Shown: piece after piece, positions 1,602-60,163 of the stretch
Layout of the letters: every line of letters starts with the position of its first letter
Numbering within the stretch: the stretch's first letter is position 1
Origin: an uncultured Opitutaceae bacterium
GTDB lineage: Bacteria; Verrucomicrobiota; Verrucomicrobiia; Opitutales; Opitutaceae
NCBI GenBank assembly: GCA_903862935.1
Contig: CAIOZY010000023.1
Location: 1 to 60,163 of the forward strand
Reading direction: 5' to 3'
Length of the DNA stretch: 60,163 bases
Made by a program: the position numbers and the translations under genes
The notes under the pieces: generated by a model
Told to the model about the DNA's origin: nothing
What the model saw: the letters and a program-made list of their open reading frames with translations, nothing else
Database searches by the model: none

Positions 1602-3008
1602 ATGCTGCGCAACTGCCTCCTTTTTCTGCTGGGATGCGCCGCGAGCTGCCCGGCAGCCCCCCCCGCGGAGCCTCAGCCGCAGCGGGTCGTCGTGATCCCG
1701 ATCAAGGACGAGATCGCGCAGCCGGTCCTCTACATCCTGCGGCGCGGGCTGAAGGAGGCGATCGCCTCGAAGGCGGACGTCGTGGTGCTGGACCTGAAGA
1801 CCCCCGGGGGGGCCCTGGACACGACCTTCCAGATCATGGAGGCCCTGGACAAGTTTCCCGGCAAGACGGTGGCCTACGTCGACAACGAGGCGATGTCGGC
1901 CGGGGCATTCATTTCGGCGATGACCGGCGAGATCTGGTTCACACCGGACGGTGTGATCGGGGCTGCTGCGCCGGTGACCTCAACCGGGCAGGACGTCGAC
2001 GCGACCATGAAGATGAAGGTCGTCAGCTACCTGAAGGCCCGCATGCGCGCGATATCCGAGGGCAAGGGTTACCGGGGCCAGGTGGTGTCGGCGATGATCG
2101 ACTCCGAGATCGAGCTTAAGATCGATGGGGTGGTGATCAAGGAGAAGGGCGAACTGCTGTCACTGACGGCGACGGAGGCTATGAAAGAGTACGGGAAGCC
2201 GCCGCACCCGCTCCTCGGCTCAGGGATTGCGCCTGATATCGACTCGCTTCTGACGAAGAAATTCGGGGCCCACGGCTACACGGTGCAGACGCTCGAGGTC
2301 ACCTGGTCGGAGCGGCTTGCCGTATGGCTAAACGAGATTTCGCCGATCCTGCTAGGCCTGGGCCTACTCGCCCTGTTCATCGAGTTCAAGATGGGCGGGT
2401 TCGGGCTTTTCGGGATCGCCGGGGTGGGGCTCCTGGCGCTGGTCTTCATGGGGAGCTATGTCGCGGGCCTCTCGGGCCACGAGCCGATCCTCATCTTTGG
2501 CCTGGGGGTCGTGCTGCTCGCTCTCGAACTCATCTTTTTCCACAGTGCCGGATTTCTCGGCGTGGTCGGCGTGGTGCTGATGCTCGGATCACTCCTGTGG
2601 TCGATGGCGGACCTCTGGCCCAATGAGCCGGTGACGGTCGCCTGGTCCGCCGACGCCTTCGCCCGCCCGCTTGCAAACCTCGGCGCAGGCCTCGGGATTG
2701 CGATCGTCCTCGCAGTGGGCCTGTTGCGGTTTCTGCCGCGGGGCTGGATCTGGGACCGGCTGATCGTGAGCGCCACGGTCGGCGGCGCTGCCCAAACGGC
2801 CAGCACCTACCCCAAGACCGCCGCGTCCCTCGACGCCCTGGTCGGTAGGCGGGGCGTAGCAGCGACTGCACTGCACCCAAGCGGCCAGGTTGAGGTCGAC
2901 GGGGTCCGCTACGAGGCCAGGGTTGACGTGGGCGCAATCGACCGCGGGGAGCCGGTCATTGTGCGAGGCCGGAGCGACTTTAGCCTTATCGTGGATAAAT
3001 TCTCATGA
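1602..3008 (+). CDS. NfeD family membrane-bound serine protease (long form)
   Basis: A 468-residue protein starting at the ATG at 1602, which gives a signal peptide (LLFLLGCAASCPAA). The N-terminal half is a ClpP-fold serine protease domain. Ser99 in MSAGAF and Lys137/139 in the ATMKMK stretch sit where the Ser97-Lys138 dyad lies in the archaeal stomatin-cleaving protease 1510-N. About five to six hydrophobic segments follow (residues 250-400), then a C-terminal OB-fold NfeD domain (VGRRGVAATALHPSGQVEVDG). Such proteases pair with stomatin or flotillin partners, and floA lies two genes downstream. Its stop overlaps the next start (ATGA, 3005-3008). Expected to work in membrane quality control or lipid-raft-like domains. 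Confidence 0.9.
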   Translation: MLRNCLLFLLGCAASCPAAPPAEPQPQRVVVIPIKDEIAQPVLYILRRGLKEAIASKADVVVLDLKTPGGALDTTFQIMEALDKFPGKTVAYVDNEAMSAGAFISAMTGEIWFTPDGVIGAAAPVTSTGQDVDATMKMKVVSYLKARMRAISEGKGYRGQVVSAMIDSEIELKIDGVVIKEKGELLSLTATEAMKEYGKPPHPLLGSGIAPDIDSLLTKKFGAHGYTVQTLEVTWSERLAVWLNEISPILLGLGLLALFIEFKMGGFGLFGIAGVGLLALVFMGSYVAGLSGHEPILIFGLGVVLLALELIFFHSAGFLGVVGVVLMLGSLLWSMADLWPNEPVTVAWSADAFARPLANLGAGLGIAIVLAVGLLRFLPRGWIWDRLIVSATVGGAAQTASTYPKTAASLDALVGRRGVAATALHPSGQVEVDGVRYEARVDVGAIDRGEPVIVRGRSDFSLIVDKFS

Positions 3009-3469
3009 GCACGATCGTTCTTCTGTTTCTCGTCGGCATCGGCCTTCTCGCCGCGGATGTCTTTGTGTCGAGCTTCCTGCTCGCGATCTGCGGGGGCGTC
3101 GCGATGCTCGGCGGCTGCGCCTTCGCCTATGAGAGCTACGGGGTTCTCGGGGCCGGATTCGCTGCCGCGGCCGCGCTCGTTCTGCTGGGCGGCACGATCT
3201 ATCTGGAACTGGTGGTTCTCCCGCGCACTCGTTTCGGCAAAGGCTTGGTCGTCGAGTCGACCTCCGGGGCCTCAAGCCAGCCCCCCGTGGCGCAGGCCGA
3301 CATCGTGGGCAAGCCCGCGCAGGCCCTGACGACCCTAGCCCCGAGCGGCTACGTCCTGGTCGAGGGCCGCCGCTACGAGGCGTTCTGCCAGGCCGGCCAC
3401 GTCCCGAAGGGCACCGAACTGAAAGTCATCGGCTTGGATAATTTCCGTCTCATCGTCGCAAAAGCCTGA
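3005..3469 (+). CDS. NfeD-like short protein (membrane anchor plus OB-fold)
   Basis: A 154-residue protein with two to three transmembrane helices in the first 75 residues, then an OB-fold NfeD C-terminal domain (residues 95-154; [21 protein letters not shown] and NFRLIV). It lacks the protease domain of the preceding protein and corresponds to the short NfeD1b-type partner often encoded beside floA. Its ATG overlaps the stop of the long nfeD gene, and floA follows after 14 nt, so the three are surely one operon. A duplicated NfeD pair of one protease and one scaffold is the usual arrangement; the biochemical role of the short form is not established. Confidence 0.87.
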
Positions 3470-3483
3470 ACCCCGTCACTCCT

Positions 3484-4488
3484 ATGTTCGATATTCCGCT
3501 TATTCTCCTCATCCCGCTCGCCGTCGTAGCCCTGGTCGTCCTGGGCATCTTCCTGTCCTATTTTGGGACCTGGCTGAAGGCCCGTCTAAACGGGGCCCCG
3601 GTGAGCATCATCAACCTCGTCGGGATGCGCCTCGGCGGCGTTCCCTATAGCCTGGTTGTCGGCGCGCGCATCACCGCCGTCAAGGCAGGCATCCAGATCA
3701 GCACTGACAAGATCGCCGCGCACTTCCTGGCGGGCGGCAACGTGATCCCCACTGTGCAGGCGCTGATCGCCGCGCAGAAGGCCGGCATTGTCCTGGACTG
3801 GGACCGGGCCTGTGCAATCGATTTGGCGACCAAGGGCTCCGGCAAGTCCGTGGTCGAGGCCGTCCGGACTTCGGTCGATCCCAAAGTCATCGACTGCCCG
3901 AACCCCGAGAGCGGCAGGACCACGATCGACGGCGTCGCCAAGGACGGGATCCAGGTCAAGGTCAAGGCCCGGGTCACCGTGCGCACCCACCTGGACCGCT
4001 TTGTCGGAGGCGCCAAAGAGGAGACGATCATCGCCCGGGTGGGCGAGGGTATCGTCACGACGATCGGCGTTGCCGACAGTTACAAGCACGTGCTGGAGTC
4101 GCCGGACAGTATCTCGAAGACGGTGCTGGCGCGCGGCCTCGACGTGGGCACGGCTTTCGAGATTCTCTCAATCGACATCGCCGACGTCGACGTCGGCGAG
4201 AACATCGGCGCCCGGCTGCAGGTCGCCCAGGCCGAGGCGAACAAGAACATGGCCCAGGCGCAGGCCGAGATCCGGCGCGCCGCGGCGGTCGCCCTCGAGC
4301 AGGAGATGAAGGCCCGCGTCCAGGAGATGCAGGCCAAGGTCGTCGAGTCGCAGGCCCAGGTTCCCCTGGCGATGGCGGAAGCCTTCCGCAGCGGCCGGCT
4401 CGGCGTCATGGATTACTACCGGATGGAGAACATCCAGTCGGACACGGCGATGCGATCAACGATCGCCCAGCCCGAGGGCAAGAAGTAG
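3484..4488 (+). CDS. floA: Flotillin-like protein FloA
   Basis: A 334-residue protein of the YqfA/FloA family, a bacterial flotillin that marks functional membrane microdomains. An N-terminal hydrophobic hairpin (residues 5-28) anchors it. It is followed by the SPFH/band-7 region ([19 protein letters not shown] to about residue 220) and a long Ala/Glu/Gln-rich coiled coil (about 230-300; [20 protein letters not shown]). The tail with [18 protein letters not shown] is strongly characteristic of FloA. It lies directly after the two NfeD genes, the classical association. Confidence 0.95.
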
Positions 4489-4505
4489 CCTTGCGACCCT
4501 GACCC

Positions 4506-5057
4506 ATGGCCAGCGACCGCAATCCCGTTGACTGGGTGCTCGGCAACCGCGAGCTCCTGGTCATCGTTTTTGCGGTCGCCGTTTGGCTGCTCAACCGGAT
4601 CGGGGCGGCCCGCAGGGCTGCCGGCTCTCAGAACCCTGCCCGCCAGGCGGGGTCCGCTGATGACGAGGCTGAGCGCACGAGGCGGGTTCAGGAGGAGGTC
4701 CGCCGCAGGATCGCCGAGCGACGGGGCGCGGCGAAGCCTGAGATGCCTCCTCCGCTCTCGCAGCCCTTCGAGCCTGCCCGCATGGCCGAGGAGCCTGCCC
4801 CGCCGGAGGAGGCCGAAACCGACGACACCGAGGAGCAGGTCCTCAAGCGTCAGCGGGAGATCGAGCGGGATCTCCGGGCCCTTGAGGACGCGCGTGCCGC
4901 GGCTCTAGCCGGGGCGCGGGCCGCCCAGCGGGCTTCGGTTGTGCAAACCCAGGCGGCTGTGCCTAACCCATGGCTTGGGGAACTGAAGAACCCGGCGGGC
5001 CTCAGGCGCGCGGTTGTTCTTCGGGAGATCCTGGGGCCTCCGATTTCCCTGCGTTAG
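4506..5057 (+). CDS. Hypothetical membrane-anchored coiled-coil protein of the floA operon
   Basis: A 183-residue protein starting 17 nt after floA. Residues 14-32 form one transmembrane helix (ELLVIVFAVAVWLLNRIG). The rest is highly charged and likely cytoplasmic, with two predicted helical, Glu/Arg-rich stretches (about 52-75 and 100-145). A conserved-looking end follows (AVVLREILGPPISLR), typical of a docking peptide seen in several Verrucomicrobiota and Planctomycetes proteins of this kind. No enzyme motif is visible. Position suggests a structural partner of FloA/NfeD; this is inference. Confidence 0.75.
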   Translation: MASDRNPVDWVLGNRELLVIVFAVAVWLLNRIGAARRAAGSQNPARQAGSADDEAERTRRVQEEVRRRIAERRGAAKPEMPPPLSQPFEPARMAEEPAPPEEAETDDTEEQVLKRQREIERDLRALEDARAAALAGARAAQRASVVQTQAAVPNPWLGELKNPAGLRRAVVLREILGPPISLR

Positions 5058-5069
5058 CAGGCCGAGCCT

Positions 5070-5882
5070 TTAGGGAAGCTTCGCCCGGTCGCGGCCCTTG
5101 AAGGGCATCGGGTAGCGCTTGCCAGAAATCTCGACGGCGAGGTTCTCGCCCGCGCTCGCGATGATATAGACCGGCCCCGGCTTCGGAACGGCGGCGGTTT
5201 GCCCGCGGACCAGGCTTCCCTGGTACAGGAGCCGGTTGTCCGAAACGGCGTTCACCTGGACCTGGACGGCATCGAGAGCGACCAGGGTGAATGTGGCCTC
5301 GGCGGCCGGCTGCACGACGGGCGGCGGCGGGGCGGCCCGCTCGACTGCGGCGCGCGGCGACTCGCCGCCGAAGATCGCCTTGACGATCCAGATGAGCAGA
5401 AGGACAGCGAGCAGCAAGCCCAGCGCGATTCCCCCCTTGAAGACCAACTCCGGGCTCACCAGAGGCCCAGTTTGCATCGTGCTGGGGCGGGTGCGCGTGA
5501 CCTGAGGCGACGGCCTGGCCGGGGATTCCTCCGGCTGGGGCTCGGCCTGCGCCGCGCCTGCCCGCTCGTTCGCGCGTTCCTCGGAGGAGGACACCGACAG
5601 ATCCATGCGGCCGTAGACCTCGCGGCTGGGCTGGCGCGGCCGCACATCGCCGCCACCGAGGGCAGCAAAGTCGTTCAGAATCCGGTCCGGGGGCAGGTGA
5701 AGGTAGATCGCGTAGCCGCGCAGGAATCCGCGCACGTAGATATCCATCAACCCTATGTCGAACTGGTTGCTCTCGAACTTCTGCAGGTAGTCGCCACGAA
5801 TCTTTGTCGCATCGGCTGCTTCGCGGATTGTGACGCCCCTGCGCTTTCGAGCTTCCTCAAGCCGTTCGCCGATGGTCTGCAT
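5070..5882 (-). CDS. rodZ: RodZ-like cytoskeletal protein (HTH plus DUF4115-type periplasmic domain)
   Basis: A 270-residue bitopic membrane protein. Residues 1-70 form a Cro/CI-like helix-turn-helix (IGERLEEARKRRGVTIREAA and IRGDYLQKFE), which in RodZ binds MreB. A proline-rich linker follows, then a transmembrane helix (about 147-170) and a periplasmic beta domain (ATFTLVALDAVQVQVNA to the end) like the RodZ C-terminus. It would help couple the MreB cytoskeleton to rod-shape peptidoglycan synthesis. It follows ftsK by 15 nt on the same strand, so cell-shape and division genes are co-transcribed. It converges with the floA operon. Confidence 0.8.
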   Translation of the reverse strand: MQTIGERLEEARKRRGVTIREAADATKIRGDYLQKFESNQFDIGLMDIYVRGFLRGYAIYLHLPPDRILNDFAALGGGDVRPRQPSREVYGRMDLSVSSSEERANERAGAAQAEPQPEESPARPSPQVTRTRPSTMQTGPLVSPELVFKGGIALGLLLAVLLLIWIVKAIFGGESPRAAVERAAPPPPVVQPAAEATFTLVALDAVQVQVNAVSDNRLLYQGSLVRGQTAAVPKPGPVYIIASAGENLAVEISGKRYPMPFKGRDRAKLP

Positions 5883-5897
5883 AGGCTGTTTTTGGCA

Positions 5898-8336
5898 TCA
5901 GGTGCTGTCCAAATCGACCAAAATCTCGCGGGGGCTCGAACCGTTTTCCGGCCCAACGATGCCCTTTTCCTCCATGAGCTCCATGATCCGCGCTGCGCGG
6001 TTGTAGCCGATCTTCAGACGGCGCTGCAGCATGGACGTGCTGGCGCGTCGCGTCGTCCGCAGCACCTCCATCGCCTGCTGAAAGAGCTCCTCGTCGTCGC
6101 CCAGATCCTCGTCGTCGCCACCCTCCCCATCCTCCTCGTCGTCCTCCCGGGCCGCGCGGTCGATCCGATCCTGGACATCCTGGGCGAAGGCCGGTGGGGA
6201 GTTGTTCTCCTTGAGGAACCGGACCAGGTCCTGGATCTCGTCGTCGGCGACGAAGGCTCCCTGGGCGCGCACCACTCTCGAGGTCCCCGGCGGCGTGAAG
6301 AGCATGTCGCCCCGCCCGATCAGGGTCTCCGCCCCCTTGTGGTCGATGATCGTGCGGGAGTCGACCTGGGAAGCCACCTGGAAGGCGATGCGGGAGGGCA
6401 GGTTCGCCTTGATGACGCCGGTGATGACGTCTACCGACGGGCGCTGGGTGGCGATGATAATGTGGATTCCGGCGCCGCGGGCGAGCTGGGCAAGCCGGGC
6501 GACGTTGGTTTCGATCTCGGCAGGGGAGACCATCATCAGGTCCGCCAGCTCGTCGATAATCACGATGATGTAAGGCAGATGCTCGGGCATCTCTATCCCG
6601 TCGTCGACCGCAAGGGGATCCAGACCTTCGAGCGAGCCCTGGGCCGGCGGTGGGGGCGGTTCCGAGGACTTCTTTCGGTGGTTGAACCCGATGATGTTGC
6701 GGACGTTGGCCTTGGCAAAGATCTGGTAGCGCTGCTCCATCTCGCTCAGCAGCCACTTGAGGGCGGCAGGAACCTTCTTGGGCTCCGTCACCACGGGGAT
6801 CAGCATGTGAGGAAGGGCGTTGAAGATCTTCAGCTCGACCACCTTGGGGTCGATCATGATCATTCTCAGGTCCCGCGGGCTCTTCGAGTACAGGATCGAG
6901 GCGACGATGGCGTTGATGCAGACGGACTTGCCCGAGCCGGTGGCGCCCGCGATCAGCAGGTGCGGCATCTTTGTCAGGTCGGAGACGAGCGGTCTGCCGG
7001 AGACATCCTTGCCGAGCGCGATCGGTAGCTCGGCCTTGGCGGACACCCAGTCCTCGCTCTCGAGGATCTCGCGCAGGCCCACGGGAGTGGGAACCTGGTT
7101 GGGTACCTCGACCCCGACGGCGGCCTTTCCCGGGATGGGGGCCAGGATGCGCACGGACTGGGCGCGCATCCCCAGGGCGATGTTCTTGTCCAGGCCGGAA
7201 ATCTTCTCGACGCGCACGCCCGGGGCCGGGACGAGTTCGTAGCGCGTGATGACCGGGCCGACATGAATCTCGCCCAGAGAGACCTCAACACCGAACTCCC
7301 CCAGGATTCTCAGCAGATTCTCGGCGTTTTGCCGGTGCTCCTCCTCGGAGTTGGCGGCAGAGACCCGCACCTGCTCCTTCAGGAGCGTTATGGGCGGGAA
7401 CTTGTAGCTGTCGTCGAGCGCGGCTAAGGGAGTGGGGGCCGCCTTGGCCTTCTTGGGCTCCTCCGGCTTGACGATTTTCAGGGCCGGCGCCTTCGCGGGC
7501 TGATTGTCTGCGGCCGCCCGGGCGGCCGCCGCCGCTGCGGCAGCCGAGGGCCTGGCAGGGGATGATGGGTTTGAATCGCCGCCGGACTTGGGGACCAGGA
7601 CGTTCTTGTTGGCCGGCCCGACGGGCTCGAGGACTAGGGGCTGGCGCACCGGGGCCTCCGCGGCGGCCTTGGCCTGGCGGCTCGCCAGGTCCGCAGCGAG
7701 TAGGGCTTGGCGCTTGGCGCGCTCCGCCTTCCACGAGGAAAGCAGCGCCAGGATCCGTTCGAGTTCGGTGCCGATGTCCTTGGTGAAGACGTACAGCATG
7801 CCGAAGACGTAGAAAAATCCCAGGACGAGGATCGTGCCGAAGTCGCCGATCAGCTCGCTGCCGATCCGCTCGTAGACCAGCCGCCCCAGGGCGCCTCCGG
7901 GTCCCTGCGGGAAGAAGTTCGTGCTCCGGGTCCAGTCGAACATCGCCGACAGCAGACCCGAGCCCGCGGCCACGCACCCGAGCATCGTGATCAGCCGGGC
8001 CGGTCCGAGCCTGCGGGAGCTGCGCAGCGCCAGGTAGGAGGACCAAAGCAGGAACACCGGAAGCAGCCAGGCAGCCCAACCGACGCTCGTGTAGGCGACG
8101 TAGGAGGCGGCCGATCCGAAGCCCCCCGCGAGATTGCGCTCGGTCGGGTTGGTGGTGATGAACTTGCTCTGCTCCGGGCTGTAGTCGGCGAAGGCCGCCG
8201 CGAGCAAGAGTCCCAAGACAAGGCAGCTCACCGCCACCGCCCAATTGGGCGGGGTTCGGGGCGGCCCGCTGGCGGCGCCCCCGTTTGGGTTTGAACTCTC
8301 TGACCTTGGCATCTTTGCTGGTGTCTGAGAACTCAT
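5898..8336 (-). CDS. ftsK: DNA translocase FtsK
   Basis: An 812-residue DNA pump that segregates chromosome termini at the division septum. The start was set at the ATG at 8336 (MSSQTPAK) rather than a TTG 21 nt upstream. The N-terminus has four hydrophobic helices (about residues 28-190). A linker rich in Ala, Lys and Pro follows, then the alpha/beta motor with Walker A GATGSGKS, Walker B IVIIDELADLMMV, and the GIHIIIATQRPSVDVITG motif. The C-terminal gamma winged helix (STSMLQRRLKIGYNRAARIM) would read KOPS sites. It shares a short divergent promoter region with manA. Confidence 0.95.
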   Translation of the reverse strand: MSSQTPAKMPRSESSNPNGGAASGPPRTPPNWAVAVSCLVLGLLLAAAFADYSPEQSKFITTNPTERNLAGGFGSAASYVAYTSVGWAAWLLPVFLLWSSYLALRSSRRLGPARLITMLGCVAAGSGLLSAMFDWTRSTNFFPQGPGGALGRLVYERIGSELIGDFGTILVLGFFYVFGMLYVFTKDIGTELERILALLSSWKAERAKRQALLAADLASRQAKAAAEAPVRQPLVLEPVGPANKNVLVPKSGGDSNPSSPARPSAAAAAAAARAAADNQPAKAPALKIVKPEEPKKAKAAPTPLAALDDSYKFPPITLLKEQVRVSAANSEEEHRQNAENLLRILGEFGVEVSLGEIHVGPVITRYELVPAPGVRVEKISGLDKNIALGMRAQSVRILAPIPGKAAVGVEVPNQVPTPVGLREILESEDWVSAKAELPIALGKDVSGRPLVSDLTKMPHLLIAGATGSGKSVCINAIVASILYSKSPRDLRMIMIDPKVVELKIFNALPHMLIPVVTEPKKVPAALKWLLSEMEQRYQIFAKANVRNIIGFNHRKKSSEPPPPPAQGSLEGLDPLAVDDGIEMPEHLPYIIVIIDELADLMMVSPAEIETNVARLAQLARGAGIHIIIATQRPSVDVITGVIKANLPSRIAFQVASQVDSRTIIDHKGAETLIGRGDMLFTPPGTSRVVRAQGAFVADDEIQDLVRFLKENNSPPAFAQDVQDRIDRAAREDDEEDGEGGDDEDLGDDEELFQQAMEVLRTTRRASTSMLQRRLKIGYNRAARIMELMEEKGIVGPENGSSPREILVDLDST

Positions 8337-8398
8337 GCTAACACCTCGAGCGGTCAAATGTAAACCCGCGCCGGCTCGCGGGGAAGAGACATGACGGT

Positions 8399-9415
8399 AT
8401 GAGGGACCTGCTCCGTTTCAAACCCTTGTATCAGGAGCGGGTGTGGGGAGGCCGGGCGCTTGAGTCCGCCTTCGGCCGCTCGCTTCCCGCTTCGCGCCCG
8501 ATCGGCGAGAGCTGGGAGATCGCCGACCGCCCGGAGGCGCAGTCGGTGGTGGGAGGGGGCTCTCTCTCGGGGCTGACCCTTCGGCAGGCGATCGAGGCCC
8601 ATGGACCCGACATCATGGGCCCGGGATGGGAGGCCGACCGGCCCTTTCCGCTTTTGGTTAAGTGGTTGGACTGCCGCGAGCGCCTCAGCCTCCAGGTCCA
8701 CCCTCCGGCCGGGGTTGCCGCCCGGCTCGGGGGCGAAGCCAAGACTGAAAACTGGTACATCGCTCACACCGCGCAGGGAGCCCAGCTGATCGTGGGCCTG
8801 AAGCGCGGAGTCACCCGGGCGCAATTCGAGCAAGCGATCCCCGAGCATACCCTGGAGGCCTGCGTGCACCATTTCCCGGTGGCCGTGGGTGACTCGATCC
8901 TTGTTCGGAGCGGGCAGGTCCACGCGATCGACGCCGGCAACCTGATCCTCGAGATCCAGCAAAACTCTGACACGACCTACCGCGTCTACGATTGGGGACG
9001 CATAGGCCTGGACGGCAAGCCAAGGCAGCTCCATGTAAAGGAGTCCCTTGAGTCGATCCTGTGGGACAGCTTCGAGCCGGTGCCCGTCAGGGCCGCGCCT
9101 ACATCCGGGGTGATCGCCGAATGCGACGAATTCCTGATCCGGCGCGTCGTCCTAAGCGCAGGCGAGCGCCTCCACGTGGCTGCGGGGGAGCAGCCCCGGA
9201 TACTGAGCGTCGTCAGCGGTTCGGTCGTGGCCGCCCCCGGCGCTAAGGCCGCGGCCAAGGCCGAGCCCCAGACCCGGCCTGCCCCGAAGGGGACGGCCGA
9301 CGATTCCGGGCAGCACCTGGAGCGGGGGGCGAACGCGCTCCTGCCCTTTGCGGGCGAATTCACATTCAGCGCCGAGGCGATGACGATCCTGCTTGTCACC
9401 GAGGATTTCACGTGA
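8399..9415 (+). CDS. manA: Mannose-6-phosphate isomerase, class I (short type)
   Basis: A 338-residue zinc isomerase interconverting mannose 6-phosphate and fructose 6-phosphate, feeding GDP-mannose or taking up mannose. Zinc ligands are visible in QVHP, in Glu of AKTENWY, and in the His of GQVHAI, followed by the EIQQNSDTTYRVYDWGR signature of the short Bacillus-type enzyme. The C-terminal cupin part carries an unusual Ala/Lys/Pro-rich insertion of about 30 residues (AAPGAKAAAKAEPQ), which is probably a surface loop. It is transcribed away from ftsK and followed by grpE. Confidence 0.93.
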   Translation: MRDLLRFKPLYQERVWGGRALESAFGRSLPASRPIGESWEIADRPEAQSVVGGGSLSGLTLRQAIEAHGPDIMGPGWEADRPFPLLVKWLDCRERLSLQVHPPAGVAARLGGEAKTENWYIAHTAQGAQLIVGLKRGVTRAQFEQAIPEHTLEACVHHFPVAVGDSILVRSGQVHAIDAGNLILEIQQNSDTTYRVYDWGRIGLDGKPRQLHVKESLESILWDSFEPVPVRAAPTSGVIAECDEFLIRRVVLSAGERLHVAAGEQPRILSVVSGSVVAAPGAKAAAKAEPQTRPAPKGTADDSGQHLERGANALLPFAGEFTFSAEAMTILLVTEDFT

Positions 9416-9421
9416 GGGGAG

Positions 9422-9442
9422 GCCCCGCCGGGCGGGCGGGGC
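9422..9442 (+). terminator. GC-rich hairpin between manA and grpE
   Basis: Arms 9422-9429 (GCCCCGCC) and 9435-9442 (GGCGGGGC) form a perfect 8-bp stem seven bases after the manA stop. No real T run follows, so it may only pause polymerase or stabilise the manA 3' end. Confidence 0.35.
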
Positions 9443-9483
9443 TTGCAGAAAGGCCTCAGCCGGTGTTTAATTTCCCCTTTTTC

Positions 9484-10035
9484 ATGACCGATCCCAAACC
9501 GAAACAAGCGGCCCCGAACGCCACGGATACCCCCGCGGCCGAACCGGCCCCGGCAGCCCCGGATCCGGCTGCCCTTTTGGCCGCGGCCAAGAAAGAGGCC
9601 GCCGACAACCACGACCGGTACCTGAGGGCTTTCGCCGATCTGGAGAACTTTCGCCGACGGGCGATCCGCGAGAAGGAGGAGCTGCGGCTGTATGCGGCAT
9701 CGAAGGTGCTTGAGGAGCTGCTTCCGGTCCTGGACAACCTCGCCTTCGGGCTCGCGGCCTCTCGGCAGTCCGGCGCTGACATCAAGGTTCTGACGAATGG
9801 GGTCGAACTTGCCCTGCAGCAGCTCAAGTCGACGCTCGCCGGCCACGGGCTGACGGAGATCAACCCGCTGGGCAAGCCCTTCGACCCCCACCAGCACGAG
9901 GCCATCTCCCACCAGCCAAGCCCGGACACGCCTGCCGAGCACGTCTCCGCCGTCGTCCGGTCCGGCTACCTACTGAATGGGCGGCTCCTGCGCCCCGCCT
10001 CGGTGGTCGTCTCAAGCGGTGCCCCTGCCTCCTAA
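9484..10035 (+). CDS. grpE: Nucleotide exchange factor GrpE
   Basis: A 183-residue co-chaperone that releases ADP from DnaK. The start is the ATG at 9484 (MTDPKPKQ); the longer reading frame upstream covers the manA-grpE spacer. An Ala/Pro-rich acidic N-terminus is followed by the long dimer helix ([20 protein letters not shown]) and the beta domain with the family signature ([40 protein letters not shown]). dnaJ follows after 7 nt. dnaK itself is not in the window. Confidence 0.95.
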
Positions 10036-10042
10036 CCCAGCC

Positions 10043-11194
10043 ATGGCAAAGGAAGACTACTACGCGCTGCTCGGGATCGAGCGCAACGCCTCTGCGGAGG
10101 AGATGAAGAAGGCCTATCGCAAGAAGGCGATGCAGTTCCACCCGGACCGAAATCCCGGCGACAAGAAGGCCGAGGAGATGTTCAAGAAGGTATCCGAGGC
10201 CTACGAGGTGCTGCAGGACGCAGACAAGCGCGCGGCCTACGATCGCTTCGGGCACGCGGCCTTCGAGACCCCGGGCTCGGGCGGCCCCGGCGGGATGCGC
10301 GGGGGCGCCGGCGGGTTTCACGACCCATTCGACATTTTCAGGGAAGTCTTCAGCCAGGGCGGAGGCGGGGGCGGGATCTTCGAGGAGATGTTCGGCGGCG
10401 GCGGGGGCGGGCACGAGGCGGGCCGGGACGGCGCCGACTTGCGGTACGACCTGGAAATCACCCTCGAGGAGGCTGCGCGCGGGATGGAAAAGGAGATCTC
10501 GTTCCGCAAGCTGGTCGCCTGCAGCCACTGCGACGGCTCCGGGGCCGAGCCCGGGTCAAAGCGGGTGACCTGCCCGACTTGTCGCGGCGCGGGCCAAATC
10601 CGCCGCTCCGGCGGCATCATCGTTTTTGCTCAGACCTGCCCGACCTGCGGGGGCTCGGGAAAGAAGACCGAGAAGGCCTGTACGGTCTGCCGGGGCGAGG
10701 GCCGGACCCCGAAGACGACGAAGCTGAACCTGCGCGTGCCGCCCGGAGTCGACACCGGTTCCAGACTGCGCTCCGCCGGAAACGGCGAGGCGGGCGCCGC
10801 CGGGGGAGCACCGGGGGACCTGTACATCGTGATCACCGTCAAGGAGCACGAGCTCTTTGAGCGCCAGGGCGACAACCTCTTCTGCGAGATCCCGATCAAG
10901 TTCACCCTGGCGACCCTGGGCGGGGTAATCGAGGTGCCGACCCTTTCGGGCAAGGCCACCCTCAAGATCCCGGCTGGAACCCAGAGCGGCACGACCTTCC
11001 GGCTGCGCGACCGGGGGGTGACCAACCTGCGCAGCGGCCACCCGGGCGATCAACTCGTGCGGGTGCATGTCGAGGTTCCCTCCTCGCTGTCCGCCGAGCA
11101 GCGCCGGATCCTGGAGGAGTTCGCGCGGGTCAGCGGCGACGCCGCCGAACCGACCTCGCGCAGTTTTTTTGAAAAGGCCAAGAAGTTCTTCTAA
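10043..11194 (+). CDS. dnaJ: Chaperone DnaJ
   Basis: A 383-residue type I Hsp40 that delivers substrates to DnaK and stimulates its ATPase. The start is the ATG at 10043 ([11 protein letters not shown]). The J domain has the HPD tripeptide ([17 protein letters not shown]), followed by a Gly/Phe-rich region (about 72-130). Four CxxCxGxG zinc motifs are intact ([32 protein letters not shown]), and the C-terminal substrate-binding beta domains are complete. It forms an operon with grpE. Confidence 0.97.
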
Positions 11195-12869: not shown

Positions 12870-13739
12870 ATGCCCCTCGTGGAGATACGCAGCGAAATCA
12901 CAGCCGGTTGCGCCGATGCCGCCGAGGAGATTCTGCTGGAGCTGGGAAGGCCGGAGTGGAGCGTCCTCGAGGACGCCCCTTCGGCGCGGGCCTGGCTCGT
13001 CGGGATCTTTGCCGATCAAGAGGCGGCCCTGCACAGTTGGGGGATCCTGAAACCCCTCCTTCCGGAGTGCGCTGCGGCGGAGCCGGTCTTAAGCGACCTG
13101 CCCGACCGTGCCTGGCAGGACAGCTACCGGGTGCATTTCAAGGCGTGGCGGTTCGGGAGGCTGCATTGGGTGCCGGTCTGGGAGCGGGGGACCTACACGC
13201 TGCCGGGCGGGCACGCGGCCCTCTGGCTCGACCCTGGCCTGGCCTTTGGCACCGGCAACCACGAGACGACCCGGCTGTGCATCGAGCGCCTCTCGGCCCT
13301 CACCGAGGGGAGGCCGGGGCTCCGGGTCATCGATGCGGGCTGCGGCTCCGGGATCCTTGCTCTTTCCGCCGCCCTCCTGGGCTGCGGCGAAATCTGTGCC
13401 TTCGACAACGACCCCCAGGCCGTCGGAGTGAGTCGCGAGAACGCCGAGCTGAACAGCCTTGCGGGTCGGGTCGAGTTCTTCACGGCTGACCTGGTCTCGG
13501 GCCTGGCCGGGCGGCGGGCCGACATCGTTATCGCCAATATCCAGGCCGATGTCCTGTCCGCCGGCGCCGGGGCACTCGCGGGGGCGGTCTCACCCGGCGG
13601 GGCTCTCGTCTTGAGCGGAATTCTGGCGCGGGAGATCGACCGAGTGAGGGAGTCCTTTGCCGCAGCGGCACCGGGCTGGCCGAGCGACTCGCGGACCTTG
13701 GGCGAGTGGTGCGACCTCGAGCTCAGGATGCCGGCCTGA
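12870..13739 (+). CDS. prmA: Ribosomal protein L11 methyltransferase
   Basis: A 289-residue SAM-dependent methyltransferase that trimethylates ribosomal protein L11. The start is the ATG at 12870. The N-terminal domain is followed by WVPVWERGTYTLPGG and the family-specific LDPGLAFGTGNHETTRLC, the SAM motif VIDAGCGSGILALSA, and the IVIANIQADVL motif. Its stop (13737-13739) abuts the stop of the convergent helicase (13740), leaving no spacer. A terminator, if any, must lie inside coding sequence. Confidence 0.92.
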   Translation: MPLVEIRSEITAGCADAAEEILLELGRPEWSVLEDAPSARAWLVGIFADQEAALHSWGILKPLLPECAAAEPVLSDLPDRAWQDSYRVHFKAWRFGRLHWVPVWERGTYTLPGGHAALWLDPGLAFGTGNHETTRLCIERLSALTEGRPGLRVIDAGCGSGILALSAALLGCGEICAFDNDPQAVGVSRENAELNSLAGRVEFFTADLVSGLAGRRADIVIANIQADVLSAGAGALAGAVSPGGALVLSGILAREIDRVRESFAAAAPGWPSDSRTLGEWCDLELRMPA

Positions 13740-56496: not shown

Positions 56497-57372
56497 TCAA
56501 GCATTGGCTACGGCGTGTTGGGTCTGGCGATACATCTCGGAGGGCGTCGCTCCGCCGTGGGAGCGGTGCGGTCGGAGGTCGTTGTAGAAGCGGAAGAACG
56601 TGTCGAGCTGGGCGTGGCCGTCGATCAGCGAGACGTAGTCCTTGGGGTAAATCTCGTCGTACTTTACGGTGCGCCACAGCCGCTCGATGAAGATGTTGTC
56701 GATGGCCCGACCCCGGCCATCCATCGAGATGCGGATCGGCCGGTCCTTGAAGACTCCGAGCCACTCGGCGCTGGTGAACTGACTACCCTGATCGGTGTTG
56801 AAGATCTCCGGGTTGCCGTACTGTGCCAGTGCCCGCCGGAGGGCCCGGGCGCAGAAGCCAGCGTCGAGCGTGTTCGACAACTCCCAGGCGAGCACTTTGC
56901 GGCTGTACCAGTCCATGATCGCAACCAGGTAGGCACTGCCGCCTCGGATCGGAACGTAGGTGATGTCGGCGCTCCAAACCTGGTTCGGCCTGGTAACCTC
57001 GACACCGCGCAGCAGATACGGATAAACCGGATGGTCCGGATGCGGCCGAGACAGACCCCGGCGCTTCAACATCAGTGCCTCAAGGCCCATTTTGCGCATC
57101 AAGCGCTGCACCCGTTTGCGGTTCACCCGCCAGCCTTCCCGGGTGAGCCAATAGACGAAATTGCGCGAGCCGAACTGGGGATAAGCCATGTGCAACTCGT
57201 CGATCGCCCGCATCAGCGCCAGGTTCTGCGCCGACTGAGGCCGCGGGCGATAGTAATGCGTCGCCCGCGGCACGCCCAAGAACTCGCATTGGCGCTTCAC
57301 TGTCACCTTCGGATGCTCCTTCTCAATCAGGCCCCGGCGGCGATCACAGTCCAAGCTCCTCAACTTTTTTTT
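56497..57372 (-). CDS. IS3 family transposase OrfB (DDE integrase)
   Basis: The catalytic half of the OrfAB transposase. It has the HTH_21 region (RRGLIEKEHPKVTVKRQCEF), a rve core with the first Asp in SADITYVPI, second Asp in NTDQGSQFTSAEW and Glu in FIERLWRTVKYDEIY, so the DDE triad is intact. It is read by -1 slippage on an A9 run (minus strand, T at 57365-57373), where orfA WAKKKV becomes RKKKLRSLD. The frame alone extends to 57453 but overlaps orfA there. Confidence 0.94.
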   Translation of the reverse strand, partial: KKKLRSLDCDRRRGLIEKEHPKVTVKRQCEFLGVPRATHYYRPRPQSAQNLALMRAIDELHMAYPQFGSRNFVYWLTREGWRVNRKRVQRLMRKMGLEALMLKRRGLSRPHPDHPVYPYLLRGVEVTRPNQVWSADITYVPIRGGSAYLVAIMDWYSRKVLAWELSNTLDAGFCARALRRALAQYGNPEIFNTDQGSQFTSAEWLGVFKDRPIRISMDGRGRAIDNIFIERLWRTVKYDEIYPKDYVSLIDGHAQLDTFFRFYNDLRPHRSHGGATPSEMYRQTQHAVANA

Positions 57373-57634
57373 TCGCCCAATCGTTCTCAACCTGCAGTTG
57401 GCCGATTTTGCGGTACAGCTCCTTCTCGCGCTCGGCGGCGGCCTGCGGGTCATGGTCGGTTCTCTTGCCGAACAGCTCGGGCAGGCGTTCGGCGATCTCT
57501 TTCTTCCAGGCGGTCACCTGTGTCGGGTGCACCCCGTATCGGGCTGAAATCACGTGGACGGGCTCTATGCCCTTCAGGGCTTCCAACGCGACCTTGGCTT
57601 TGAACTCAGCATTGTGTTGGCGTCTCTTTGACAT
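57344..57634 (-). CDS. IS3 family transposase OrfA
   Basis: A 96-residue protein with the HTH_Tnp_1 fold (MSKRRQHNAEFKAKVALEAL, ISARYGVHPTQVTAWKKEI) and a leucine-zipper-like helix (AAAEREKELYRKIGQLQVEN). It binds the IS ends and, alone, usually lowers transposition; the OrfAB fusion does the cutting. The stop lies just past the A9 slip site. Confidence 0.95.
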   Translation of the reverse strand: MSKRRQHNAEFKAKVALEALKGIEPVHVISARYGVHPTQVTAWKKEIAERLPELFGKRTDHDPQAAAEREKELYRKIGQLQVENDWAKKKVEELGL

Positions 57635-57776: not shown

Positions 57777-57980
57777 ATGGTCACTGTCTTCTGCGTCTTC
57801 CTGGCAAAGCCAACTCTCGATCGCTCCTATTATGCCCACGTTCCGATCTGGCTGCGCCCTCTGCCCGTTTGTCGCATTGTTGCGTGCCAGCGGACTTGGG
57901 AACTCGGGTTTCAAGCCGCTGATAAGGATGAGGCAACAATTTCGAGCGAGCTGATTATGAAACTAATGACCAATGAATAA
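57777..57980 (+). CDS. Possible small protein, 67 residues, unrecognised
   Basis: The frame has a good Shine-Dalgarno (AAGGAAA, 57763-57769, 7 nt before the ATG) but no family motif. It begins with a hydrophobic stretch (MVTVFCVFLAKP) and ends in a charged tail. It may be the remains of a longer gene, cut off by the IS3 insertion 75 bp upstream. Weak support. Confidence 0.25.
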   Translation: MVTVFCVFLAKPTLDRSYYAHVPIWLRPLPVCRIVACQRTWELGFQAADKDEATISSELIMKLMTNE

Positions 57981-58538
57981 GATAGTGGGCCTTACTGGCC
58001 ATTGTCCGAACTGTCCTTTACGAGAATCCGTCAGTTTAGGGTATCCCCACACCCCTCCCCACAGCGGGGATACCCTGCGATGGCAGATTAGCCTTTCACG
58101 GCAACGACTTAAGGCCTGTTCACCCGCCTTGCTCTATCCCCGAGGTCGGTCGGTTTTAGGTCGCTCGTCGCAGACTCCTCGCTCTCCAAAAACCTCCCTC
58201 CTTCCGTCGCTCACGCGACGGTTCACGGGTTCACACACACGGACGGGTTGGCCTGTAAAGGACATCATGTCCTTTACGAGTCCCGGAACGGGTTGGAACC
58301 CGTAAGAGCGGGTTCGACGCTCACGGAGAGATGCGCCTTGCCTTCGCTCTCACGGCTCCGGCAAGGCGCATCCACCCGCTCGCAGTTCTTCTTTGGGAAA
58401 GAAGCAAAACCCGTGGCCAAGAGCGACGGGTTGGGAAGAAGACCAGGGGACACAATGACCACGACTTCGCTGTCGGTTAGGGCAGGCAAGAGCCAAGACA
58501 GCTTGAAGTCTTGAACCACCAAATCATGATCCACACTC
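57981..58538. repeat. Hairpin-rich non-coding block
   Basis: No gene is supported here. Perfect inverted repeats include GGGTATCCCC/GGGGATACCC (58039-58048, 58066-58075) and CCGTCGC-TCAC-GCGACGG (58204-58221). There are also a 23-bp palindrome around C58266 (58255-58277) and GATGCGCCTTGCC/GGCAAGGCGCATC (58330-58342, 58360-58372). TGTCCTTTACGAG occurs twice, near 58013 and 58269. Density of exact hairpins suggests an origin, transfer or recombination site, or a structured RNA. Confidence 0.65.
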
Positions 58539-58919
58539 ATGGCCGGTAAACCAAAAAGCCTGATGGACATACTTGCATCTCAGTTCCCCAACCTGGTTTC
58601 TTTCAACGTTGAGGTCCGAGAGCGGTGCCGCGAGTTAGATCCGCGTTTTGCGGAGTGGACTTATGGTCCCGGTGACACAAATGAAATCGGGCGCCGGACG
58701 GAGCTGAAACACGATCGGACTGTGGAGACGACCTGCGAGTTTGACCCGCTTGAACCAGTGCGATTGGCCGCGCTTGAGCGGAAGACGACGAGATCGGGGA
58801 AACTGCGCGCATACCACACTGATGAAAGCTTCTCCGTTTCGCGGGGCTACCAAGTTAAGTTGGTCTATAAGCCGGAAGCAGACCCAGACCCAGCTCAACC
58901 ACCTACGGCGCCCTCGTAG
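58539..58919 (+). CDS. Hypothetical protein of the mobile island
   Basis: A 126-residue soluble protein (MAGKPKSLMDILASQFPNLV) with mixed charges, a Pro-rich tail and no motif I recognise. It has no clear Shine-Dalgarno. Codon use is less GC-biased than in the chromosome-like part. Located between a hairpin block and another small gene in an island next to a conjugation-type ATPase. Likely accessory. Confidence 0.5.
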   Translation: MAGKPKSLMDILASQFPNLVSFNVEVRERCRELDPRFAEWTYGPGDTNEIGRRTELKHDRTVETTCEFDPLEPVRLAALERKTTRSGKLRAYHTDESFSVSRGYQVKLVYKPEADPDPAQPPTAPS

Positions 58920-59085
58920 GCGTGAATCCGAACGGGAAGCCCCCGCGTCGTTCGCCTCCGCCCTCTTTCCATTGTACCAGCCGGTCAACGCTCACGCGTT
59001 GACTACGGCCGGTGAGTCAAGAGTGCGGCCGGCTCACTGGCCGCCCGCGAAGGTCGAAATTACCAGCCAATTTCAACTCACTTGC

Positions 59086-59468: not shown

Positions 59469-59882
59469 ATGAAGGAGCCTTGGACACCTGAGAAGGTTCG
59501 GGTCAAAGTCGAACTGCTTACGCAGTCGAATAGTCCTTACGTTTCGAAGTATGGGAACGTGGAATTCATTGTGCGGCGGAATATGGTCGCCGAAGATTGG
59601 CCAGACGAAGTTCTGATAGGCGTGATTGAGAAAGGCCCAATGGCCGAGGTTCTGCCAAAGATTTGCGCGGAAGTCCTAGAAAAGCGACGGAATGAGGCAC
59701 GGTGGCGGGTCGAGCAGCAAGACCGCCAAGCCACCAAAGAAGCGCTTGCTGATATTAAACGAGCCGCCGAAACTGGGCCAACGCCTCATTGGTCAACGGT
59801 GCCAATTTTTTGGATTCTGCTCGCCACATTAGGAGTCGCTGCAATTGCAGCATGGCCAGTCGTTCGATCTTGGTTTAGGTAA
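59469..59882 (+). CDS. Hypothetical tail-anchored membrane protein of the mobile island
   Basis: A 137-residue protein with a mixed alpha/beta N-terminal part (VRVKVELLTQSNSPYVSKYG), a helical charged middle (EVLEKRRNEARWRVEQQDRQ) and one C-terminal transmembrane helix (VPIFWILLATLGVAAIAAW). No family recognised. It directly precedes the interrupted ATPase gene (12 bp) and may belong to a transfer apparatus; inference from position. Confidence 0.6.
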   Translation: MKEPWTPEKVRVKVELLTQSNSPYVSKYGNVEFIVRRNMVAEDWPDEVLIGVIEKGPMAEVLPKICAEVLEKRRNEARWRVEQQDRQATKEALADIKRAAETGPTPHWSTVPIFWILLATLGVAAIAAWPVVRSWFR

Positions 59883-59893
59883 TACGAGGCTCC

Positions 59894-60073
59894 ATGCCTT
59901 CACCCACTGGCAACGACCTCAATCTCGGCATTCTCGCCGGAGGTAAGGCTTCGCTCACCCTTTCCCGCACGGAGCGGGATAAGCACCTTTACGTCTGCGG
60001 CGGCACGGGCACGGGGAAGAGTAAGTTCAGACCTCCTGACCTAGGCCCCGTCAAAATGTCCGCTTTCTGGTGA
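59894..60073 (+). pseudogene. Conjugation-type (TraD/VirD4/HerA-like) ATPase, interrupted after Walker A
   Basis: The frame reads MPSPTGNDLNLGILAGGKAS, LTLSRTERDKHLYVCGGTGT, GKSKF, a classical N-terminal core of T4SS coupling proteins and DUF87-type ATPases with Walker A GGTGTGKS at residues 36-43. After codon 45 (about 60028) the sequence no longer fits and a stop follows at 60071-60073. The right flank looks like the end of another element. The gene is truncated by at least several hundred codons. Confidence 0.72.
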
Positions 60074-60163
60074 TTTGGCGGGCGTGGCGACCGAGAAGAG
60101 GAGGCGCAGAGGAGATCCCGGGAAAAAGGCGGGCGAGCGATTCAGCTCGTCGCATAGGGCAGC
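60029..60163. mobile_element. Putative terminus of a second insertion element running off the right edge
   Basis: The sequence after 60028 starts AGACCTCCTGACCTAGG and includes GTCAAAATGTCC, a motif I associate with the multiple end repeats of IS21-type elements. On the minus strand a frame ends LPYATS at 60142. Too short to prove; interruption of the ATPase gene here is the main support. Confidence 0.4.

Follow-up and report, generated by a model that had tools for sequence, protein, structure and literature searches.

A hairpin-rich arm of a putative serine recombinase island in Opitutaceae, with an attachment site that may lie within the recombinase gene

Exact hairpins crowd together near one end of a contig from an uncultured Opitutaceae bacterium. 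What are these hairpins, and what kind of element carries them? The window, meaning the whole stretch of DNA analysed, is the entire contig C23 of 60,163 nucleotides. It belongs to a draft genome of 3.35 Mb in 62 contigs (95.6% complete), and the evidence throughout comes from draft MAGs. The hairpin region is probably the left (L) arm of an integrated island whose relatives encode a large serine recombinase (LSR). In this reading the attachment site attP lies within the LSR gene, and attB is the 3' terminus of a tRNA or tmRNA gene.

The hairpin cluster in the window

The features to the left and right of the junction between host and island are as follows.

56497-57634: IS3-type transposase gene pair (two ORFs), left of the island
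57983-57988, + strand: junction core TAGTGG, host to the left and island to the right; homology to relatives starts here
57986-58039, + strand: orphan LSR tail codons, WALLAIVRTVLYENPSV then a stop, aligned to in-frame LSR tails of relatives
58005-58011, + strand: TCCGAAC, the position proposed for the attP zinc-domain motif; CGAAC lies 25 bases from the first base of the core
58038-58076, + strand: hairpin P1, 11-bp arms, outer pairs poorly kept among relatives
58152-58194, + strand: hairpin P3, stem strongly co-varying
58204-58221, + strand: hairpin P4, the first TCAC hairpin, CCGTCGC-TCAC-GCGACGG
58255-58277, + strand: hairpin P5, GTAAAGGACA/TGTCCTTTAC
58296-58315, + strand: hairpin P6
58330-58372, + strand: hairpin P7, 13-bp arms, arm sequence different in other elements
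58388-58404, + strand: hairpin P8, CTTCTTTGGGAAAGAAG
up to about 58404: hairpin array
58539-58919, + strand: cargo ORF of 126 aa without family match
58942-59067, + strand: module C, including the second TCAC hairpin; common to L010 and L030
59296-59317: hairpin AGTCCCGCCGTTTGGCGGGACT with a T-rich stretch after it, intrinsic-terminator-like by eye
59469-59882, + strand: cargo ORF of 137 aa without family match
59895-60029, + strand: ORF start with a P-loop, GGTGTGKS, recognized by eye

The window shows the L arm and some cargo only. Three ORFs on the right were compared with Pfam and gave no match, and the contig stops at 60163. The 126-aa ORF has no relatives in a protein scan of the contig collection, and the left flank of the window has no match among 57 genomes compared. 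The end of the IS3-type IS lies only about 290 bases from the junction, and the P-loop ORF is apparently interrupted before the contig ends.

The initial annotation had drawn attention to dense exact hairpins, to two that share a TCAC loop and to a repeated sequence, and all three descriptions hold. Eight perfect hairpins lie in 57981-59010, the maximum for any 1030-base step in the window, and 127 lie across the 60 kb (arms of at least 7, loop 3-20). Across 14 homologous or analogous arms (5.5 kb, the window's included), 58 perfect hairpins were counted against 6.5 +/- 2.3 in 60 dinucleotide shuffles, i.e. they are about nine times commoner (arms of at least 7, loop 3-18). The second TCAC hairpin, GTCAACGC-TCAC-GCGTTGAC at 58984-59003, is exact, as is the first. 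The repeat is a 13-mer, TGTCCTTTACGAG, present at 58012, within the tail-coding stretch, and at 58268, where it forms the 3' arm of the hairpin at 58255-58277. Folding z-scores for 57983-58440 (458 nt) are -7.1 for RNA of the + strand, -6.8 for DNA of the + strand and -5.7 for RNA of the - strand.

The TCAC loop, which may be GNRA-like, closes 16 of 35 hairpins with a four-base loop (stem of at least 6) in 14 element regions (11.3 kb), many of the 16 being homologous copies of one hairpin. Outside these regions, in 155.8 kb, it closes none of 85.

Recombinase tail codons and the attachment site

How widespread is the arm? DNA matches to 57980-59010 are found in 11 of the 252 genomes of the family, the window's genome counted; G138 (L028/L020) was dropped because its match is not aligned with the arm. 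A pattern scan of the contig collection gave 11 stretches, eight already found and three new: L046 (a Chthoniobacterales MAG), L053 (a Verrucomicrobia MAG) and, more distant, L049 (a Ca. Taylorbacteria MAG). Homologous L arms are present in Opitutaceae and in two other Verrucomicrobia MAGs, and no arm matches were found in plasmids, phages or viral contigs. The mobile island envisaged in the initial annotation is borne out; the arm is homologous to the L arms of integrative elements, and it is on this homology that the window's putative membership in the LSR elements rests.

The stretch in L049 (6870-7250) is a divergent hairpin array outside Verrucomicrobia, without an LSR tail, and may reflect transfer or a binning error. 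Weak matches to the array model R1 (L041, L043) and a copy that is degenerate by eye (L042) were dropped.

The junction core reads TGGTGG or TGGCGG in most relatives, and the DNA before it is unlike from one to another. Two arms of one genome (L031 and L032 in G100) are 99% identical over 124 bases from the core and differ upstream. What follows the core appears to be code for protein. The 12-20 codons after it are alike in 17 of 18 arms, L091 being weak, with a typical consensus WxLLDxxRTxF, then ENP in most Opitutaceae arms; departures are VALLHSARTFF (L079), RPFF (L008) and RTVL (the window). Mean dN/dS, averaged over pairs of 16 tails (L027 and L091 excluded), is 0.41 in frame (99 usable pairs) and 0.89 (117) and 1.29 (119) in the other frames. 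That the left end acts as nucleic acid only was set aside, since the comparison of frames speaks for protein. The tail as a degron was also set aside; several arms end in AA, AV, VV or SV, and others end differently. In the window a TAG immediately precedes the tail codons, so the tail is not translated as it stands.

To which protein does the tail belong? In L032 it stands in frame on a copy of the LSR 3' end (..NEFPHGSEKWW followed directly by ALLDIVRTLFDENPVV and a stop), while the complete LSR gene nearby ends with ..NEFPHGSEKWWR and a stop within the tmRNA gene. The tail therefore belongs to the LSR, whose gene is cut by the attachment site. The junctions of R (the LSR gene end) or its inverted copy R' with L are in frame in L032, L073, L079, L090 and L094, where a gene copy is involved, and in L098 and L101, where it is the LSR's own 3' end. 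A predicted structure for the C-terminal part of the L098 LSR (237 aa, mean pLDDT 79.9) was modelled on a sequence read directly from the contig and a shallow alignment of eight rows that includes tail rows; it places the tail in a helix at 216-233, with block means of 89 and 83.

Resolvase, Recombinase and zinc-ribbon domains are present in the LSRs of L032 and L094. LSR genes end at tmRNA in L032, L073, L075 and L076, and at tRNA genes for Val (L074, L092), Leu (L079, L090, L024), Ser (L010, L091), Ala (L008) and Gly (L094). Among 21 LSR loci read to the stop codon, a tRNA was noted for 13. At 11 of the 13 the LSR frame enters the antisense tRNA strand, L065 and L085 being exceptions. A tRNA-His call inside L025 was taken as false. 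Three single contigs, L008, L010 and L024, carry only L, the array and the 3' part of the LSR gene at a tRNA (L-to-tRNA spans of 1.6, 1.7 and 1.2 kb, respectively), with no second L; these deletion derivatives tie the array to the end of the LSR gene. A complete LSR gene together with a complete array was found on no one contig. In the R arms of L032, L073 and L075, C-TCAC-G hairpins with varied short stems occur in the LSR coding end, 8-11 bases before the core.

The spacing of a GAAC-type motif bears on the identity of the two sites. Measured from the first base of the core, its distance is 20 bases on all 10 attB sides and 25 on 14 of 15 L sides (24 in L079). The L sides are those of 15 of the 18 arms (L027, L029 and L091 excluded), and in L008 and L031 the forms CGACC and CGGAC were allowed as variants. 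According to PMC3783163, the zinc-domain motif stands 5 bp nearer the centre in attB than in attP, and the offset of 20 against 25 is as that rule predicts. The constant 20 is due partly to tRNA anatomy; the constant 25 is not. As to an empty site, the gene neighbouring the L094 element is present in G603, and there is no tRNA at that locus.

Inverted duplicate arms and a model of insertion

An inverted copy of the LSR gene end (R') lies upstream of the LSR in 8 of 20 LSR loci, with lengths and identities as follows.

L032: 114 bp, 100%
L073: 95 bp, 98%
L074: 94 bp, 100%
L079: 81 bp, 99%
L090: 143 bp, 99%
L091: 334 bp, 100%
L092: 87 bp, 99%
L094: 367 bp, 81%

R' was absent from the other 12 of the 20, some of which are partial genes (e.g. 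L075, L076, L098). It is joined to L in L032, L073, L079, L090 and L094; R' of L091 is followed by a weak tail, the contig of L092 stops 18 bases on and R' of L074 falls short of the core. Eight of nine contigs with an R'-L or R-L junction end about 16-160 bases from it, the exception being L094, and these nearby contig ends raise the suspicion that L itself is a repeat. As predicted, the L beside R' has exactly one further copy in each of the genomes G167 and G066. This copy is the same at every one of 138-139 bases (100%), adjoins different DNA and lies where a contig ends. G100 has the same pattern, given by L031 and L032. At the level of assembled sequence, a second L joined to host DNA is thereby established in three draft genomes.

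L094 is the sole complete contiguous element found, located at an att site and with both ends definable. Its layout of 12.3 kb is host DNA joined to L at 1095, cargo, L' joined to R' at 10948, the LSR gene, and R joined to tRNA-Gly at 13421. L and L' are inverted relative to each other, lie about 9 kb apart and agree at 94.6% over 424 bp; of the two, it is the L at 1095 that is joined to host DNA. The cargo (2285-10540) encodes HsdR, HsdM, HsdS, SIR2, HerA and a KTSC protein, and L094 is a mobile defence island (type I restriction-modification and SIR2-HerA). The array model R1 was not found in L094 (best E 0.45); the window consequently shares with L094 only the tail and the hairpin-rich style, not the array.

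Between the LSR and R' of L032 (320-1270) is a gene with homeodomain-like HTH and AIG2-like domains (Pfam), and a similar HTH is seen by eye in L073 (about 8026-8420); the HTH gene of L032 and L073 is a candidate regulator.

Could the inverted R and L copies be the outcome of nested or repeated insertions and not a standard element plan? Only one contiguous example is at hand (L094), and there are relics that have a single L and a single R, as that origin would allow. Yet the same order recurs at 8 loci at different tRNAs, R and R' are 98-100% alike in 7 of 8, and G167 and G066 each have exactly two L copies, all of which makes nested insertion unlikely.

The preferred reading is a standard plan, in which a complete island would run, as in relatives, from host DNA through L, cargo, L', R', the LSR gene and R to the tRNA. 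R would be the final 80-370 bases of the LSR gene, L the short code for the LSR C-terminal tail followed by hairpin-rich DNA, and L' and R' their inverted duplicates. The R-L junction within the LSR gene would represent attP, and the 3' terminus of a tRNA or tmRNA gene attB. Integration would split attP, such that the tail codons leave the LSR gene and stay orphaned at the far end, and the integrated gene would read into the antisense tRNA strand in place of the tail. The tail may thereby alter the action of the recombinase, a full-length, tailed LSR being made from the circle and a shortened one from the integrated island. A doubled, inverted attP would permit two insertion isomers, of which only one has the tail. 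The firm parts of this scheme, on comparative sequence grounds, are the anatomy and junctions seen in relatives, the frame constraint on the tail, the 5-base GAAC offset and the second L joined to host DNA.

Is the window's element a live left end or a relic? It may be either. No LSR of the island family was found in the window's assembly, a weak absence given the cut of the contig at 60163 and 95.6% completeness, nor was an R-tRNA end found in that same assembly, with the same cut and completeness. The lack of a family LSR in the assembly and the stop before the tail suggest that the window's copy may be a relic.

Nature of the hairpins and comparison with known systems

Changes on both sides of a stem with pairing kept were seen at 5 of 7 positions in P3 and 3 of 6 in P4 (13 sequences each), at 2 of 10 in P5 (10 sequences) and at 1 of 8 in module C (3 sequences only). 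A suggestion in the initial annotation, that the outer pairs of the window's two TCAC hairpins compensate one another, does not stand as worded: these are different hairpins, so their differing outer pairs are not mutual compensations. Between relatives, compensating changes do occur (P4, module C), and the proposed selection on structure agrees with stems that are conserved and co-vary in P3, P4, P5 and C. The structured RNA that was also proposed fares poorly.

As a reading of the array, an island-borne RNA that is structured and non-coding would fit the co-varying stems, the low folding energy, the single dominant tetraloop and the location of the array on the strand of the LSR tail. RNA helices are expected to favour G-T over A-C. 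The cells of P3-P7 and C, however, comprise 459 Watson-Crick, 1 G-T, 1 A-C and 25 other pairs, in hand-picked arms that are biased against mismatches, and an unbiased one-mismatch scan gave 3 G-T, 3 A-C and 14 other (shuffles 1.9, 1.7 and 7.2). P1 is poor, with 102 Watson-Crick, 8 G-T, 12 A-C and 32 other. A G-U excess is absent from the stem mismatches in curated stems and unbiased scan alike, folding as DNA departs from chance as much as folding as RNA does, and nothing in the window reaches the gathering score of an Rfam family. An RNA is improbable on these counts, and the lack of a G-T excess over A-C argues for DNA palindromes. That the array serves the island as an origin of transfer or replication is a more doubtful proposition still, and we consider it very unlikely. 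The crowding of hairpins at an end of a mobile island and the P-loop ORF start at 59895 speak for it, but Pfam recognizes neither a relaxase nor a replication protein in the L094 cargo or in three ORFs of the window, whose right side is missing. Integron attC sites were set aside by eye.

Might the hairpins be neutral, either through template switching in replication that keeps or changes both arms together, or as a REP-like load on the arm? Pairing that is perfect, with wobble in neither sense, and P7 arms that are wholly unlike between elements are consistent with this, but P4 and its flanks are kept across genera and the TCAC loop recurs on different stems. A neutral origin thus appears rather unlikely, if less so than an RNA. 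Favoured here are DNA palindromes of the arm that would be extruded, single-stranded or kept perfect by template switching, and that may function as such.

It is proposed, tentatively, that there are bacterial LSR islands in which integration edits the recombinase, doubled inverted arms give two isomers and co-varying TCAC palindromes act as a DNA signal. Serine integrases serve as tools because of their one-way action; if the proposal is true, a conserved tail that is removed by insertion would be a built-in switch of the enzyme. As the sole complete element carries type I restriction and SIR2-HerA, the family would also move phage defence.

How do these islands compare with known systems? 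In the yeast 2-micron circle, a plasmid with a tyrosine recombinase, two unique segments lie between inverted copies that hold the recombination sites. Inverted site-bearing copies are common to both, whereas here they belong to a chromosomal island. The islands resemble LSR integrative elements in their Resolvase, Recombinase and zinc-ribbon domains and in a motif offset such as that described in PMC3783163, and differ in the putative attP inside the LSR gene, the inverted duplicate att arms, the hairpin-rich L arm and the tRNA/tmRNA targets family-wide. Titles and abstracts of the open literature, in partial coverage, gave no serine recombinase whose own gene contains attP and no doubled inverted att arms, and the parts available of a study on island and integrase mining (PMC12884075) and of one on a synthetic device (PMC6511857) hold nothing of this kind.

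An attP within phage repressor genes is described in PMC8092301 and PMC13314858. In the integration-dependent immunity of mycobacteriophages, some of which integrate at tRNA 3' ends, attP lies in a gene whose product is shortened at the C terminus by integration (PMC8092301). There, however, it is the repressor that is shortened and the integrase is of the tyrosine type, whereas here the recombinase itself would be shortened. There is a likeness also to the suicidal tyrosine integrases of archaeal SSV type, where, according to the review PMC8371274, attP is within the integrase gene and integration alters that gene. The islands described here have a serine recombinase and are bacterial, and only the last 12-20 codons would be lost, whereas the SSV gene is left as two large halves. 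The review PMC8371274 describes self-disrupting recombinases as exclusively archaeal; if the proposed model is true, self-altering integrases would extend to bacteria and to serine recombinases.
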